Origin: Bacteroidales bacterium
GTDB lineage: Bacteria > Bacteroidota > Bacteroidia > Bacteroidales > UBA932
Direction of reading: 5' to 3'
DNA length: 10,957 nt
Assembly: GCA_024689525.1 (NCBI GenBank)
Contig: JAILDI010000142.1
Location: 1 to 10,957 of the forward strand
The notes beneath the pieces are model-generated. The model saw only the letters and a program-made list of their open reading frames with translations, was not told where the DNA came from and searched no databases. Of this stretch, positions 1 through 4,113 are shown one piece after another; the first letter of the stretch is position 1; each line of letters begins with the position of its first letter. The translations under genes were made by a program, and so were the position numbers.

Positions 1-151
1 TCTCCTTCTCCACCATCTCCAGCAGATACTTCGTGAAGCCGTACAGAATGGACATATCGGCTCCCTTGGAGTTGATCATCGGCCTCTGGAGGAAGGCGTA
101 ATACATCTTGAATACCAGCGCGTGGCCGTCTATGAGGAATAGTTTATTCAT
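1..151 (-). CDS. polA: DNA polymerase I, N-terminal 50 codons (cut by window edge)
   Basis: The leftward reading frame from the ATG at 151-149 begins MNKLFLIDGHALVFKMYYAF and continues through RPMINSKG and a YGFTKYLLEMVE segment. This is the start of the 5'-3' exonuclease (FEN-like) domain of bacterial DNA polymerase I. Asp8 in LIDGHA is the expected first metal-binding acidic residue. The enzyme removes RNA primers and fills gaps in replication and repair; only the nuclease N-terminus is visible. The gene runs off the left edge, so the polymerase domain cannot be checked. The start codon lies inside the end of the upstream YD-peptide ORF (stop at 146-144), which suggests translational coupling with whatever is transcribed upstream. 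No TAnnTTTG promoter was seen directly before it; two hairpins at 184-288 occupy that stretch. Recognition is by family knowledge, without alignment. Confidence 0.9.
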   Translation of the reverse strand, partial: MNKLFLIDGHALVFKMYYAFLQRPMINSKGADMSILYGFTKYLLEMVEKE

Positions 152-485
152 ATTCTTCTTTGTTATGTGCCCCTGAAGAAGGTTTATGGAGAGGTTGTGA
201 TTTTATGGCCTCGAACTTCTCCATAAGTGTGCGTCTGTGGCCTTGTTTTGGAGACGTTCCCCCATCTGAAATCACAACTTCTCCAAAAGTGGCTGCGAAA
301 AGCAGGTCATTGCTCACTATTGGCATGACATTCCAGCTCTCTGTCGGCAGCATTGCGACATTTGTGGACGTGGTGTCCCTCTGTGTCCTGTTGCCAGCGG
401 AATCGTAGGAATATACAACAGTAGCTTGTGCAAGTGCTTGAACTGCAAAAACAAATCCGGCAAGCAAGGAGATTATGATTCTCAT
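144..485 (-). CDS. Short secreted peptide with one YD/RHS-type motif; C-terminal half encoded by repeat DNA
   Basis: This is a 113-residue ORF. Residues 1-20 look like a Sec signal peptide (basic MR, a hydrophobic stretch, then an AQA-type cleavage region). Residues about 22-35 read TVVYSYDSAGNRTQR, a single YD repeat as found in RHS/YD-repeat proteins. From residue 65 the coding sequence is the 43-bp repeat (ATFGEVVISDGGTS) and then the second hairpin (LMEKFEAIKSQPLHK), so roughly the last 49 residues come from repeat DNA and not from a folded domain. Full RHS proteins have many YD repeats, so this is either a minimal leader-type peptide or the stump of a larger gene. It follows the 199-residue ORF by 25 nt, and its stop lies inside the polA start region. 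The initiator ATG (485-483) is well placed for the signal peptide. Function is unknown; expression is not shown by the sequence. Confidence 0.55.
   Translation of the reverse strand: MRIIISLLAGFVFAVQALAQATVVYSYDSAGNRTQRDTTSTNVAMLPTESWNVMPIVSNDLLFAATFGEVVISDGGTSPKQGHRRTLMEKFEAIKSQPLHKPSSGAHNKEEYE
184..226. repeat. 43-nt imperfect hairpin element (unit 2)
   Basis: Plus-strand arms TTATGGAGAGGTT (184-196) and AACTTCTCCATAA (214-226) pair at 12 of 13 positions around a 17-nt loop (197-213) that begins GTGATTT. Geometry and loop start match unit 1 at 246-288 read from the other strand, so unit 2 is an inverted, diverged copy of it. The single mismatch is at position 10 of the arm in both units. 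There is no T-tract, so it is not an ordinary intrinsic terminator. It lies 33 nt upstream of the polA start. Confidence 0.75.
246..288. repeat. 43-nt imperfect hairpin element (unit 1, intact copy)
   Basis: Plus-strand arms TTTTGGAGACGTT (246-258) and AACTTCTCCAAAA (276-288) pair at 12 of 13 positions around a 17-nt loop (259-275). Relative to unit 2, arm position 3 has changed from A to T together with its partner, so the pair is preserved. The 43-bp exact direct repeat at 251-293 covers all of this hairpin except its outer five bases TTTTG. Confidence 0.75.
251..293 (-). repeat. 43-bp direct repeat, copy A
   Basis: This stretch is identical over 43 bp to 3453-3495 in the same orientation; flanking bases differ on both sides. 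Read on the minus strand it begins GCCACTTTTGGAGAAGTT and encodes ATFGEVVISDGGTS in the YD-peptide ORF. Together with copy B it bounds the AT-rich block that separates polA from the ABC ATPase gene. Confidence 0.9.
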
Positions 486-510
486 ATTGATAGTTTTGGT
501 CTATATCAAA

Positions 511-1110
511 CTAATAACAACGATATTTTTGCAAATATTCTTTTCTGAAATCTGGTGTGAACCGATTCTCTGTCTGTTTTTCTTCAAGGAATAGAATTCC
601 TTTTTCCTTTTCACCAACCATAAGATACAGGAGGGGAAGAATAATAAACTGTTGATCCAGGCGTATCAATTTGCCGTTGCTTTCGTATAACCTCAGCAAG
701 TACTCTACATCTTCAACTTGGTCGTAAAACGGGTATGCAAAACGACGAATAGTATCAAACATTTCATGACACTCTGCTTCAATATTGGAATTGTCATAAA
801 AATCCCATTCCTTGTATGTGTTCGGAGTTGTAAGATAACCAATATTTGTATTTAATACCCATAATGGCGCCAACAACTTATCTCCTGTTATTTGTTTGTA
901 CAACTTTTCTATTCCAAGATGCCGAATAGCAGGAAATACTCCGACAGATCGGGATGCGGGATATGTGGAAAAACAAAAGAATAACAAATCTTGAAACTCT
1001 TTTTTCCCCCCATCTCTAAAAAACCATCTGCTCTTCCCAATCCGCAAAAAGCCCTCTTCCTGACAATTCTTAATTATTTGTGTCTCTATTATTGGTAATA
1101 ATTGTGACAT
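511..1110 (-). CDS. Hypothetical protein, 199 aa (possible immunity-type protein)
   Basis: I do not recognise this family with confidence. The product has no signal peptide or membrane segment, so it is probably cytoplasmic. It opens MSQLLPIIETQIIKNCQEEG, followed by an aromatic and basic stretch (SRWFFRD, residues about 28-34), then SVGVFPAIRHLGIEKLYKQITG near residues 56-77, then an acidic middle and a C-terminal helix-rich part ending YLQKYRCY. An N-terminal helix followed by strands around a short Arg/Trp/Phe motif recalls DUF4304-like proteins and other small immunity-type proteins seen near RHS toxins, but this is only an impression. It is AT-rich like its neighbours. It lies 25 nt upstream of the YD-motif peptide and downstream of a decayed gene. 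No clear TAnnTTTG promoter was found before its ATG at 1110-1108. Confidence 0.7.
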   Translation of the reverse strand: MSQLLPIIETQIIKNCQEEGFLRIGKSRWFFRDGGKKEFQDLLFFCFSTYPASRSVGVFPAIRHLGIEKLYKQITGDKLLAPLWVLNTNIGYLTTPNTYKEWDFYDNSNIEAECHEMFDTIRRFAYPFYDQVEDVEYLLRLYESNGKLIRLDQQFIILPLLYLMVGEKEKGILFLEEKQTENRFTPDFRKEYLQKYRCY

Positions 1111-1211
1111 TTTATCAACTGTATTAAACTAAAAAACTCTCAGTAATTTGCTTTATGTGATTGTTAAAAGAAACTACTAGCCCTAAACATCCTATTGGTG
1201 ACTGATTATCA

Positions 1212-1495
1212 CTATGATAACTTATCAATTATTGATTCGATTAATGAGCCAGTTTGTGTGATGCTGTACATCGAATCAAAATGATTTGGCAATTCTTAGC
1301 CCAAATAGTTTCTGATGTCATTTGCCAAATCACTATCCATTATTAATGTGGGAGTCTCTTCTTTACCCCATATTACAACACGAAGGCCTTTTTCATGTAA
1401 AAAAGCTTTAAAAACGATGACTCTTCTTTGGTTAATCTAATCTAATCTTATAATAATCATAGTCAATACTTGTGATGTGTCAAATACATAAACAT
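1212..1495 (-). pseudogene. Decayed small gene: frameshift at a GATTA repeat plus an in-frame stop
   Basis: This gap of about 390 nt has no intact gene but holds a degraded coding sequence on the minus strand. Fragment 1 reads SIDYDYYKIR just below 1470. Fragment 2 (1436-1299) reads from INQRRVIVFKAFLHEKGL through VVIWGKEETPTL to DSDLANDIRNYLG, then hits TAA at 1298-1296. The same frame continues with ELPNHFDSMYSITQTG and SLIESIIDKLS to TAG at 1214-1212. Fragments 1 and 2 are out of frame and meet at three tandem copies of GATTA; removing two copies would join them. A possible original ATG lies at 1495-1493 or 1489-1487, but a further one-base shift is needed from there. The original product would have been about 90 residues, cytoplasmic and of unknown family. 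The protein-like composition of the fragments is the main evidence; no homologue was checked. Confidence 0.55.
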
Positions 1496-1503
1496 AATAC
1501 CAA

Positions 1504-2160
1504 TCATCTTAATCTCAATTCAACCGAAAAGAGAGAATCATCTGCTACCTCAGTGATAAAAGATGTGGCCTCATATTCCGTTAGCGTCCCATTATCTTCG
1601 TATCTTAATGCATATAAGCGAGAGTCCTTAACCGACCAAAAAATATTGGCGGAATTACCATTTTGAAATACTTCTAAATGGACATCACCAATCTGAAATA
1701 GCAGTGTGGGTTTGTTTTCTAATATATACTCACGTAATACGCTCATTTTCTTGATATAATTCGAATGGCAAGAATCTATATTATCCCGATAAAATGATAT
1801 AGGCTCTGATTTGCCTTCCCAGTAATCTAAATCTCCCCTTGGATTGGAATACAATGCTCCAGTCATTGGGGACAGTGCACGAATATAAGAAAGATATGGC
1901 TTCTTTCGGCTCAATAAAACAAACAATTGCGCTCGTTTCTCGTCTACTGAAAGTCTTTGATATTTTCTGTCATTCCACAGATTCATCACCACAGGAATAT
2001 AAAACAGGGTATCAGTCGGTCTCTTCCATTTATCATGGTTATACTGTTTAAACACTTTCATAACAAAGGAGTCATATGCTGCACCCGATTCTTCATAATA
2101 CAACCGGCTGCAGCATGACGAAAGAATAATGGTAAAACAAACAATCTTTAGTAGCCTCAT
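1504..2160 (-). CDS. Predicted lipoprotein of unknown function, 218 aa
   Basis: The N-terminus MRLLKIVCFTIILSSC is a short type II signal peptide with lipobox LSSC, so Cys16 would be lipidated and the mature protein anchored in the inner or outer membrane. The segment after the Cys (CSRLYYEESG) is not the classic acidic surface-export signal of Bacteroidetes. The mature part is soluble, rich in aromatic and charged residues (KWKRPTDTLFYIPVVMNLW near residues 44-62; FQIGDVHLEVFQ and IFWSVKDSRLYALRYED in the C-terminal half), and looks like a compact beta-rich domain. I recognise no family. It starts 65 nt after the AAA ATPase stop, with no clear promoter between, so the two are probably co-transcribed. 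AT-rich, like the rest of the block. Confidence 0.7.
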   Translation of the reverse strand: MRLLKIVCFTIILSSCCSRLYYEESGAAYDSFVMKVFKQYNHDKWKRPTDTLFYIPVVMNLWNDRKYQRLSVDEKRAQLFVLLSRKKPYLSYIRALSPMTGALYSNPRGDLDYWEGKSEPISFYRDNIDSCHSNYIKKMSVLREYILENKPTLLFQIGDVHLEVFQNGNSANIFWSVKDSRLYALRYEDNGTLTEYEATSFITEVADDSLFSVELRLR

Positions 2161-2225
2161 AACTAGAAACTGAATACTTTAAAAAAAGAGACAGAAGCCT
2201 ATTCGCTGTTTTTATCTGCGCTTAC

Positions 2226-3362
2226 TTAATACACCCGGCATATCCATTCCCGGAGGAAACGGTCGGCTAGGGAATAAGACTTTTTCCTGCCCTCAGATTC
2301 GTAAGTGAGAAGCTGGGCATCCAAAAGATTTGTTATTGCATACTGAACAGAACTGGGAGACTTCAATGAATGCTTTTTTACGAATGCAACTGAGGTTACT
2401 CCTGTGGCTTTTCCTTCCTTGGCGATAGCAATGAGTGTTTCTTTCTGCTGGTAATTCAACTTGTTCATTAAATCAGAATACGTTCGCCCTTTTTCCTCAA
2501 GAATCTCCGATAGCGTAAGACTGATATCTCCAATGTCCAAGGCCTTGCTTTCATCACGATACGCGAAAGCATTATGATACAGGTTATGCACATAATAAGT
2601 GTGGCCTTCAAACAAGTCGTAGGCAAATACGGCTGCTTCAGCTGACAGCTCTCTTCCCGCATTCTTGAATTGATTTATCGCAAATGAGCAATAGACATTA
2701 CGAGGTATACGGTCCAGAAACAGTTGCTGTGCACTATTATAAAACGGCTTCGCTGCAGAGTGAAATATATTCTCCAGAATATGCCTGTTGCTCCCTGCAT
2801 AAATAAAACAACAGTTATTCATTTTTTGGATATATGAACGGAGTAGCGCCTCAACATTCTTTTCCGGATAATACGCTATCTGCTGAAATTCGTCGATGGC
2901 GAATATACAAGGCTTATCCGCATTCTCCAAATAGTTGAATATTTCCTGGAGTGTAAGTTCCGGTGTATGGATATCTCCCAATTTTACATTGAAAGACGGA
3001 ATTCCGCTAATTGGATCATAAGAAAAGCTTCCGGCAAGCGAACGTATGGTGGATAGAAAGAAATCCAGGGCCGCCCGGCCTTTCGGAACCAGTGCAGAAT
3101 AGATTTCTCTTCCAAGGAACAATACTAATTCATGAAGACTGGTTGTCGGGTATATGTCCGTATAAAAAGTATAGTACTTGCTTCTAATTGATGGCTGATT
3201 ATAGGTGTGATATATAAGCTGGGTCTTTCCCATCCTTCTTGGAGACGTTAGAAGGACATGCGCCTTGTTCTCCAGAGTACGCACCAACCATTGTGTTTCC
3301 TTTTCCCGGTCACAAAAGAACCTGTCGGGAATCATACCTGTAATATAGAATGGATTCTCCAT
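2226..3362 (-). CDS. AAA-family P-loop ATPase, COG1672 / ATPase_2 type
   Basis: Starting at the ATG at 3362-3360 (MENPFYITGM) the product has 378 residues. The P-loop is TSPRRMGKTQ (residues 39-48), the Walker B segment is CIFAIDEFQQ (152-161), and a sensor-like strand FIYAGSNRH follows near 186-194. This order and the SPRRxGKT form of the P-loop are typical of the archaeal-type ATPase_2 family, which is abundant in Bacteroidales. The last 70 or so residues look like a winged-helix domain (SLKSPSSVQYAITNLLDA). These proteins bind and hydrolyse ATP; their biological role is largely unknown. A longer ORF reaches 3467, but a promoter (3382-3413) sits inside that extension and the first 35 residues do not resemble the family, so 3362 is preferred. 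It is the first gene of the AT-rich block and appears intact. Confidence 0.88.
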   Translation of the reverse strand: MENPFYITGMIPDRFFCDREKETQWLVRTLENKAHVLLTSPRRMGKTQLIYHTYNQPSIRSKYYTFYTDIYPTTSLHELVLFLGREIYSALVPKGRAALDFFLSTIRSLAGSFSYDPISGIPSFNVKLGDIHTPELTLQEIFNYLENADKPCIFAIDEFQQIAYYPEKNVEALLRSYIQKMNNCCFIYAGSNRHILENIFHSAAKPFYNSAQQLFLDRIPRNVYCSFAINQFKNAGRELSAEAAVFAYDLFEGHTYYVHNLYHNAFAYRDESKALDIGDISLTLSEILEEKGRTYSDLMNKLNYQQKETLIAIAKEGKATGVTSVAFVKKHSLKSPSSVQYAITNLLDAQLLTYESEGRKKSYSLADRFLREWICRVY

Positions 3363-3381
3363 AAACTGTTGTTTTACTGAA

Positions 3382-3413
3382 CAAAAATACGGATTTCCAT
3401 CGAAATATACAAA
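3382..3413 (-). promoter_or_regulatory. Bacteroidetes-type promoter of the AAA ATPase gene
   Basis: On the minus strand TTTG (3413-3410) is followed after exactly 20 nt by TATTTTTG (3389-3382), a full match to the -33/-7 consensus TTTG / TAnnTTTG. Transcription would start near 3375, leaving a short leader of about a dozen nt before the ATG at 3362. This means the block carries its own promoter and does not rely on the upstream housekeeping operon. Confidence 0.75.
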
Positions 3414-3429
3414 TCCTATAATAGAATTT

Positions 3430-4113
3430 CTATAAAGAAGCGGGAAATTCGCGAGACGTTCCCCCATCTGAAATCACAACTTCTCCAAAAGTGGCAGTGG
3501 GATGCAGGTTGGGGAAGGCCTCGCAAATTACTTCCGGCCCGCCTGTGTGGAAGGAGCCGTCGGGGGCGATGGCGAATATGCGGGAGGCGCGGGGGGCGGA
3601 TTCGTGGAGGTCGTGGGAGGAGAAGAGGATGGTGAGGCCCTGCTCGCGGGAGAGCCTTTGCAGGCAGTCCACCACCAGGACGCGGTTTTCGGCGTCGAGG
3701 AAGGCCGTGGGCTCGTCCAGGAGCAGGCAGGACGGCTTCCGGACCAGGCCGGAGGCGATGCAGAGTTTCTGGAACTCGCCGTCGCTGAGGGTCGATATGT
3801 CGCGCTGGGCCAGGTGCTCCAGGCCGAGGGTTTGGAGGGCCTGGTCGATGCCTTCGCCCCGGCCGTAGCCGCGGTCGAAGAGGCTGTTGCGGAGGAAGTC
3901 ACGTGCCGTGAAGCCCTTCAGTTTGGGGATACGTGTGGGCACCATCGCACACTCGCTGCGGAAGCGCCGGGCAATCTCCCGCAGCAGGCTGGACTTGCCG
4001 CTGCCGTTGGGACCGCAGAGGAGCACCAGCTCGCCCGGAGCCAGGGTAAAGGAAATGTCCTTCACCAGCGTCCGGCTGCCGTAGCCGATGGATATGTTGT
4101 TCACGGATATCAT
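3430..4113 (-). CDS. ABC transporter ATPase, iron-siderophore/haem/B12 type, with repeat-encoded C-terminus
   Basis: The 227-residue cytoplasmic ATPase pairs with the FecCD-type permease upstream. Visible motifs: Walker A GPNGSGKS (residues 34-41), signature TLSDGEFQ, Walker B CLLLDEPTAFLD, and the H-loop SSHDL. The LSDGE form of the signature occurs in FecE/HmuV-like proteins. The start is the ATG at 4113-4111, whose ATGA overlaps the permease stop; a longer ORF from 4191 only adds residues shared with the permease gene in another frame. The native sequence appears to stop at residue 206 (FPNLHPT); residues 207-220 are ATFGEVVISDGGTS from the 43-bp repeat, then REFPASL and TAG. Family members usually have 250 or more residues, so the C-terminus looks truncated by the accessory block. 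The catalytic core is complete, so activity may survive. Substrate cannot be told; no binding protein or TonB receptor is in the window. Confidence 0.88.
   Translation of the reverse strand: MISVNNISIGYGSRTLVKDISFTLAPGELVLLCGPNGSGKSSLLREIARRFRSECAMVPTRIPKLKGFTARDFLRNSLFDRGYGRGEGIDQALQTLGLEHLAQRDISTLSDGEFQKLCIASGLVRKPSCLLLDEPTAFLDAENRVLVVDCLQRLSREQGLTILFSSHDLHESAPRASRIFAIAPDGSFHTGGPEVICEAFPNLHPTATFGEVVISDGGTSREFPASL
3453..3495 (-). repeat. 43-bp direct repeat, copy B (truncated hairpin)
   Basis: Identical to copy A at 251-293. It keeps the loop and one full arm (AACTTCTCCAAAA, 3478-3490). The other arm breaks off after GAGACGTT: positions 3448-3452 read TTCGC where copy A has TTTTG. So the junction between housekeeping DNA and the AT-rich block falls inside the hairpin arm. 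Base composition changes sharply here, GC-rich to the right and AT-rich to the left. Confidence 0.9.

Follow-up and report, generated by a model that had tools for sequence, protein, structure and literature searches.

Gene content of the locus

The locus comes from an uncultured Bacteroidales-like bacterium, in which an AT-rich gene cluster sits between two housekeeping genes. We refer to the whole stretch of DNA analysed (10,957 nucleotides) as the window. On its minus strand, tyrS (named by eye), rbfA, a LolC/E-like permease, a FecCD permease and an ABC ATPase are followed by the AT-rich stretch and then by polA. An earlier note on this DNA, made from the sequence alone, had described a tightly overlapping operon apparently split by an AT-rich island between two direct repeats, and these observations held. 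According to the ORF coordinates, tyrS and rbfA overlap by 1 nt, and the rbfA/LolE-like, LolE-like/FecCD and FecCD/ABC pairs by 4 nt each, the last being computed with the ABC start at 4113. The base composition changes sharply at copy B of the repeat, from a GC content of 0.42 (3001-3500) to 0.67 (3501-4000); the island as a whole ranges from 0.32 to 0.43 and the adjoining operon from 0.55 to 0.67. The two 43-mers have the same orientation, are identical at 43/43 positions and lie 3202 bp apart. The features of the region are as follows.

2..151, minus strand: start of polA (PF02739, TIGR00593)
144..485, minus strand: RHS/YD-leader-like ORF, 113 aa (18 related proteins including itself)
187..285, no strand: whole 99-bp REPIN-like palindromic doublet (alignment of copies; 98-bp counterpart in L001)
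251..293, minus strand: copy A, the doublet arm common to copy B (identical 43-mer)
511..1110, minus strand: 199-aa protein, candidate immunity protein (homologues in 6/250 genomes)
1111..1503, minus strand: AT-rich spacer in which one frame stays free of stops for 46 residues (sequence)
1504..2160, minus strand: 218-aa protein, candidate immunity protein (homologues in 3/250 genomes)
2226..3362, minus strand: AAA ATPase, 378 aa (PF01637, PF13173)
3430..4113, minus strand: ABC ATPase, 227 aa as read (PF00005)
3453..3495, minus strand: copy B, a single 43-bp REP arm bordering the island next to the ABC gene (identical 43-mer)

Both repeat copies are read into by neighbouring genes. The family part of the ABC ATPase spans about the first 206 residues (as far as 3496) and the remainder is read-through of copy B, within which the AAA ATPase ORF also remains open, upstream to 3467. 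At the other border, the C-terminal part of the leader-like ORF is read through the palindromic doublet and overlaps the start of polA by 8 nt (144-151).

The repeat belongs to a multi-copy palindrome

The 43-bp repeat turned out to be one arm of a dispersed 99-bp palindrome, a point absent from the earlier note: copy A lies within a whole doublet, and copy B is a lone arm. When window positions 140-310 were compared with six genomes, those of the top ABC relatives, one of the six matched (G001, bin Tb.RUG.440), giving 17 matches, several of which represent both strands of one place. Aligned, they revealed a palindrome made of two hairpin arms. The 24-base core of the repeat (up to 3 mismatches) matched twice in the window against a mean of 0.00 in 200 shuffles, and a 17-base arm pattern (up to 2 mismatches) was found 33 times in G001 and 20 times in the related genome G225, compared with 1 and 2 matches of the reversed pattern. 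The arms are inverted and uniformly spaced, as in REPINs: across 24 stretches from G001, G225 and the window, arm starts lay 82 bp apart at 22 places. Whole doublets numbered 13 in G001, 7 in G225 and 1 in G265, with none in 397 other genomes drawn from the genus and none for the reversed-pattern control. The doublet family appears to be clade-specific, dispersed and REPIN-like. Since the 43 bp belong to such a family, the repeat is more likely an exchange site than a duplication created on insertion. A target-site duplication also agrees poorly with the lack of a transposase and with the presence of the repeat at the empty site and elsewhere.

The sole doublet of G265 (L181, G265:C91:10413-10511) agrees with the G001 C115 copy at all of the 80 letters shown; bin contamination and recent transfer are both possible readings. 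The motif GCCAC to the left of copy B was considered as a donor mark and dropped, as it also flanks the copy in G001 C145. In G001, variant doublets (18-116 and 1666-1764 of L081, contig C17) flank a RAYT-like gene of 311 aa, which is 47% identical to one Y1_Tnp protein, together with a 150-aa ORF that matched no family.

The island is present or absent at the repeat

We compared the junction between the ABC ATPase gene and polA in relatives, as the earlier note had proposed. At the locus L001 the site is empty: the ABC gene runs into one doublet, followed by polA, and across this doublet and its flank towards polA the identity with the window is 92%. Thus, a relative without the island carries one copy of the repeat. 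The note had also predicted that collapsing the repeats would join the ABC gene to the end of the leader-like ORF in a single frame of 255 residues. Among the 15 best of 120 listed ABC proteins, which were the ones aligned, such a frame was observed in two, P0146 (278 aa less a 23-residue insertion, giving 255) and P0148 (272 aa less a 17-residue insertion, giving 255). Both read through the doublet to ...KPSSEAH(D/N)KEEYE, which is the tail of the window's leader-like ORF with G for E. However, 255 residues proved not to be the usual length of the family, as 13 of these best 15 of 120 proteins have 203-212 aa, end before the repeat and carry no repeat tail. The 255-residue ORF is therefore real in relatives, but as a read-through and not as the family norm.

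Because L001 is an empty site and P0146 and P0148 read through the doublet, the cluster is, as far as these comparisons reach, a presence/absence island located at the repeat. Of the earlier claim that the island was inserted at, or can be lost through, this repeat, the presence or absence at the repeat stands (for P0146 and P0148 at the protein level); no case of loss through it was observed directly. At the same time, the ABC protein naturally ends near residue 206 in 13 of the 15 relatives, which is one half of an outcome that the note had set against its own reading.

The ABC homologues P0144 and P0145 end in FGGT where others enter the repeat, and these C-termini are perhaps the scar of a lost doublet.

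The cargo resembles the tail of an RHS locus

The island holds two candidate immunity proteins and no toxin gene, and their possible kinship with immunity genes lies in the position of their homologues behind RHS genes. Homologues of the 199-aa gene follow an RHS gene in three of the five genomes read, directly in G039 and G045 and with one ORF between in G056; in G137 and G191 no RHS gene lies ahead, and a sixth context (G165) is outside this count. Among the homologues of the 218-aa gene, that of G200 immediately follows an RHS gene and that of G100 a YD leader; the one in G206 stands alone. The 199-aa protein is 24% identical to its L120 (G039) counterpart and the 218-aa protein, whose N-terminus looks signal-like by eye, 36% identical to that of L123 (G200). 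RHS core models matched the RHS proteins of L121 (G045), L123 (G200) and L082 (G001); in L120 (G039) and L122 (G056) the RHS protein was identified by eye. The leader-like ORF itself scored 15.1 bits with RHS_repeat, under the cut-off of 22. Gene order is RHS, 199-aa homologue and YD leader in L120, and RHS (2109 aa), a 246-aa gene and a YD leader at the contig end in G001 C97. These arrangements suggest that the 199-aa and 218-aa proteins may be immunity proteins and that the cargo most probably represents the tail of an RHS locus. The spacer at 1111-1503 is perhaps the end of a lost gene.

Fold searches with the models of both candidate immunity proteins (mean pLDDT 90.5 and 80.5) returned nothing at E≤0.001, and one relative scored 19.3 bits with DUF4304, under the cut-off of 23.2. 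The AAA ATPase family, judged by 7644 of 8000 scored candidates at E≤0.001 and strong matches in 21 of 61 genomes, is widespread. An anti-phage system was considered and rejected: the AAA ATPase had 6 PADLOC matches (best E 2.9e-05, others between 0.00057 and 0.03), whereas the three further island proteins had none. A plain transposon or integrative element was likewise set aside, no transposase or integrase being found among the island ORFs. Positions 1-3560 of the window had no match among phages and plasmids (near mode), two exact repeat patterns had none in viral contigs, and none of the 9 viral stretches matched by the leader pattern encodes a relative.

Junctions and a mosaic-like ABC end suggest possible exchange at the repeat

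We read the leader-repeat junctions at the protein level in 18 leader proteins, one of them the window's. A tail derived from the repeat is present in 11 of these, or in 10 of 17 if the database relatives alone are counted; seven lack it, and P0006 keeps just the last part. These 11 proteins, again counting the window's, have five different continuations downstream of the repeat. One leader start (P0001, P0002 and P0003) occurs with three continuations. Conversely, the polA-type continuation occurs with three leader types, namely P0001, P0005 with P0010, and P0011, the position of the last three proteins before polA being inferred from a tail of about 13 residues.

In the window's ABC ATPase, residues 1-170 align with P0139-P0142 and residues 171-206 with P0144-P0148: in the first part the window is identical to P0139 at 165/170 positions versus 146/170 for P0144, and in the second at 25/36 versus 32/36. 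For three pairs chosen once the alignment had been inspected, a split this strong arose in 3, 2 and 1 of 20000 shuffles. The ABC tree places the window with P0139-P0142 (unstarred support of 91/98). The 3' end of the window's ABC gene thus looks mosaic, and together with the leader junctions this fits homologous exchange in and around the doublet.

In G225, contigs C85 and C87 (L160 and L159; 1-188) share the first 141 bases of an ORF resembling an RHS N-terminus, 15 of 29 residues of which are identical to part of the G001 RHS protein. Apart from two mismatches, the contigs continue to agree over most of the first arm, beyond which their surroundings differ; the upstream part of this repeat was found nowhere beyond C85 and C87 themselves. 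Possibly they represent one island at two places, collapsed in assembly. G001 showed no counterpart of the 283-aa gene that adjoins the second G225 doublet.

Origin of the island

We consider it fairly probable that the island is a displaced RHS-tail immunity cassette which arrived by homologous recombination at the repeat. The ancestral state would have been one palindrome between the ABC ATPase gene and polA, as in the island-free relatives. The donor would have been the tail of an RHS polymorphic-toxin locus, whose leader-like ORF ended in the same palindrome, and the 3.2-kb cassette would have comprised the two candidate immunity genes, the AAA ATPase and the RHS-leader-like ORF. Entry through the palindrome and neighbouring sequence would leave a single arm on the ABC side. 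We infer gain rather than loss and homologous recombination as the route, and the 43-bp pair could presumably excise the island again. No contig revealed both occupied and empty forms of this island among conspecific strains. The G001 RHS locus had no arm within the 12 kb read, its leader lying at the contig end. The doublet was absent from eight genomes with cargo homologues (G039, G045, G056, G100, G137, G191, G200 and G206); therefore the cargo genes are independent of it.

The reverse order of events, in which the occupied state is old and L001-like alleles arose by loss between the two arms with one palindrome left, seems rather unlikely. A clean deletion between identical 43-mers would indeed yield the empty structure, and four leader proteins of at least three leader types bear the polA-type tail, so occupation may predate the window. 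However, copies A and B are still identical whereas the L001 counterpart differs, a contrast that speaks for a recent event on the branch leading to the window, and the ABC genes of 13 of the 15 relatives (best 15 of 120) end without the repeat. The chief technical doubt concerns the metagenome assembly, in which the contig could be a chimaera formed at the repeat or a merger of two related strains. Such repeats do disrupt assemblies, as seen in the identical initial bases of C85 and C87 and the G001 leader at a contig end, and two joined strains could also produce the ABC mosaic. Yet copy B gives way to unique sequence at the end of its 43 bp, which means that there must be a single-arm junction somewhere, and P0005, P0010 and P0011 (also from assemblies) carry leader, repeat and polA-type tail; we regard a chimaera as improbable.

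It is improbable that a RAYT-type HUH transposase moved a REP-bounded segment via its arms in an IS200/IS605-like manner. G001 has three Y1_Tnp genes and G225 four, the RAYT-like gene of G001 is flanked by two doublets of variant sequence, and copy B ends near the foot of a hairpin. Nevertheless, the island is without a transposase, the seven Y1_Tnp loci read in G001 and G225 had no doublet and no arm of the window's repeat family, and the doublet-flanked gene of G001 matched no Pfam family and scored 14.2 bits with NF047646 against a cut-off of 80. The ABC mosaic, too, favours homologous exchange over RAYT transposition.

Relation to known systems and implications

Recombination at the palindrome recalls minimal mobile elements, in which a variable cassette between two conserved genes is exchanged by homologous recombination; the window's cassette differs in having a dispersed palindrome at both borders. 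As in REPINs and BIMEs with their RAYTs, hairpin pairs are inverted, fixed in spacing and apparently dispersed (the layout of two REP arms given for REPINs in PMC3116915), and RAYT-like genes occur in the same genome. RAYT subclass 2.6 is described as mostly from Bacteroidetes, with atypical flanking structures copied elsewhere in the genome (PMC6006769). In contrast, the window's family has far fewer copies (13 and 7) than the hundreds given for Pseudomonas REPINs (PMC3390384), shows no GTAG tag, has a RAYT candidate only and borders a gene island. Strings of immunity genes behind RHS genes and polyimmunity loci are known (PMC3482391). The island resembles the latter in holding several candidate immunity genes without a toxin and in having relatives behind RHS genes, but it stands apart from any RHS gene and has a palindromic repeat at its border. 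It shares co-oriented, short, probable orphan-immunity genes with the rAID arrays of Bacteroidales (a preprint, PMC12247911), but it has two candidate genes only, and no tyrosine recombinase or other recombinase was found among its ORFs.

Our results suggest that such scattered palindromic repeats can be exchange points for bacterial warfare genes. More tentatively, and with somewhat less than even confidence, the REP doublets of this clade may be docking and reassortment sites common to AT-rich defence and immunity cassettes, with RHS-tail islands moving from doublet to doublet across chromosomal locations without an enzyme of their own. In G001 an Abi_2 gene is bracketed likewise by a second palindromic family. 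If so, REPINs, usually viewed as miniature selfish DNA, would be linked with the spread of polymorphic-toxin immunity genes, no integrase would be needed for orphan immunity cassettes to travel, and a genome's repeats would mark where to seek warfare genes overlooked by family searches. We found no paper joining 'REPIN' and 'polymorphic toxin' in the open-licence literature, and the one paper listed there that combines Rhs, extragenic palindromes, recombination and immunity deals with the Neisseria T6SS.

The Abi_2 parallel is a single case, met by chance. In L172 (G001 C129:8000-13500), 144-bp direct repeats of the second family (1096-1239 and 2279-2422, 96% identical) bracket an ORF with an Abi_2 domain (1465-2229, 41% GC; 37 bits against a cut-off of 25.6), and this repeat pair adjoins a doublet of the window's family.
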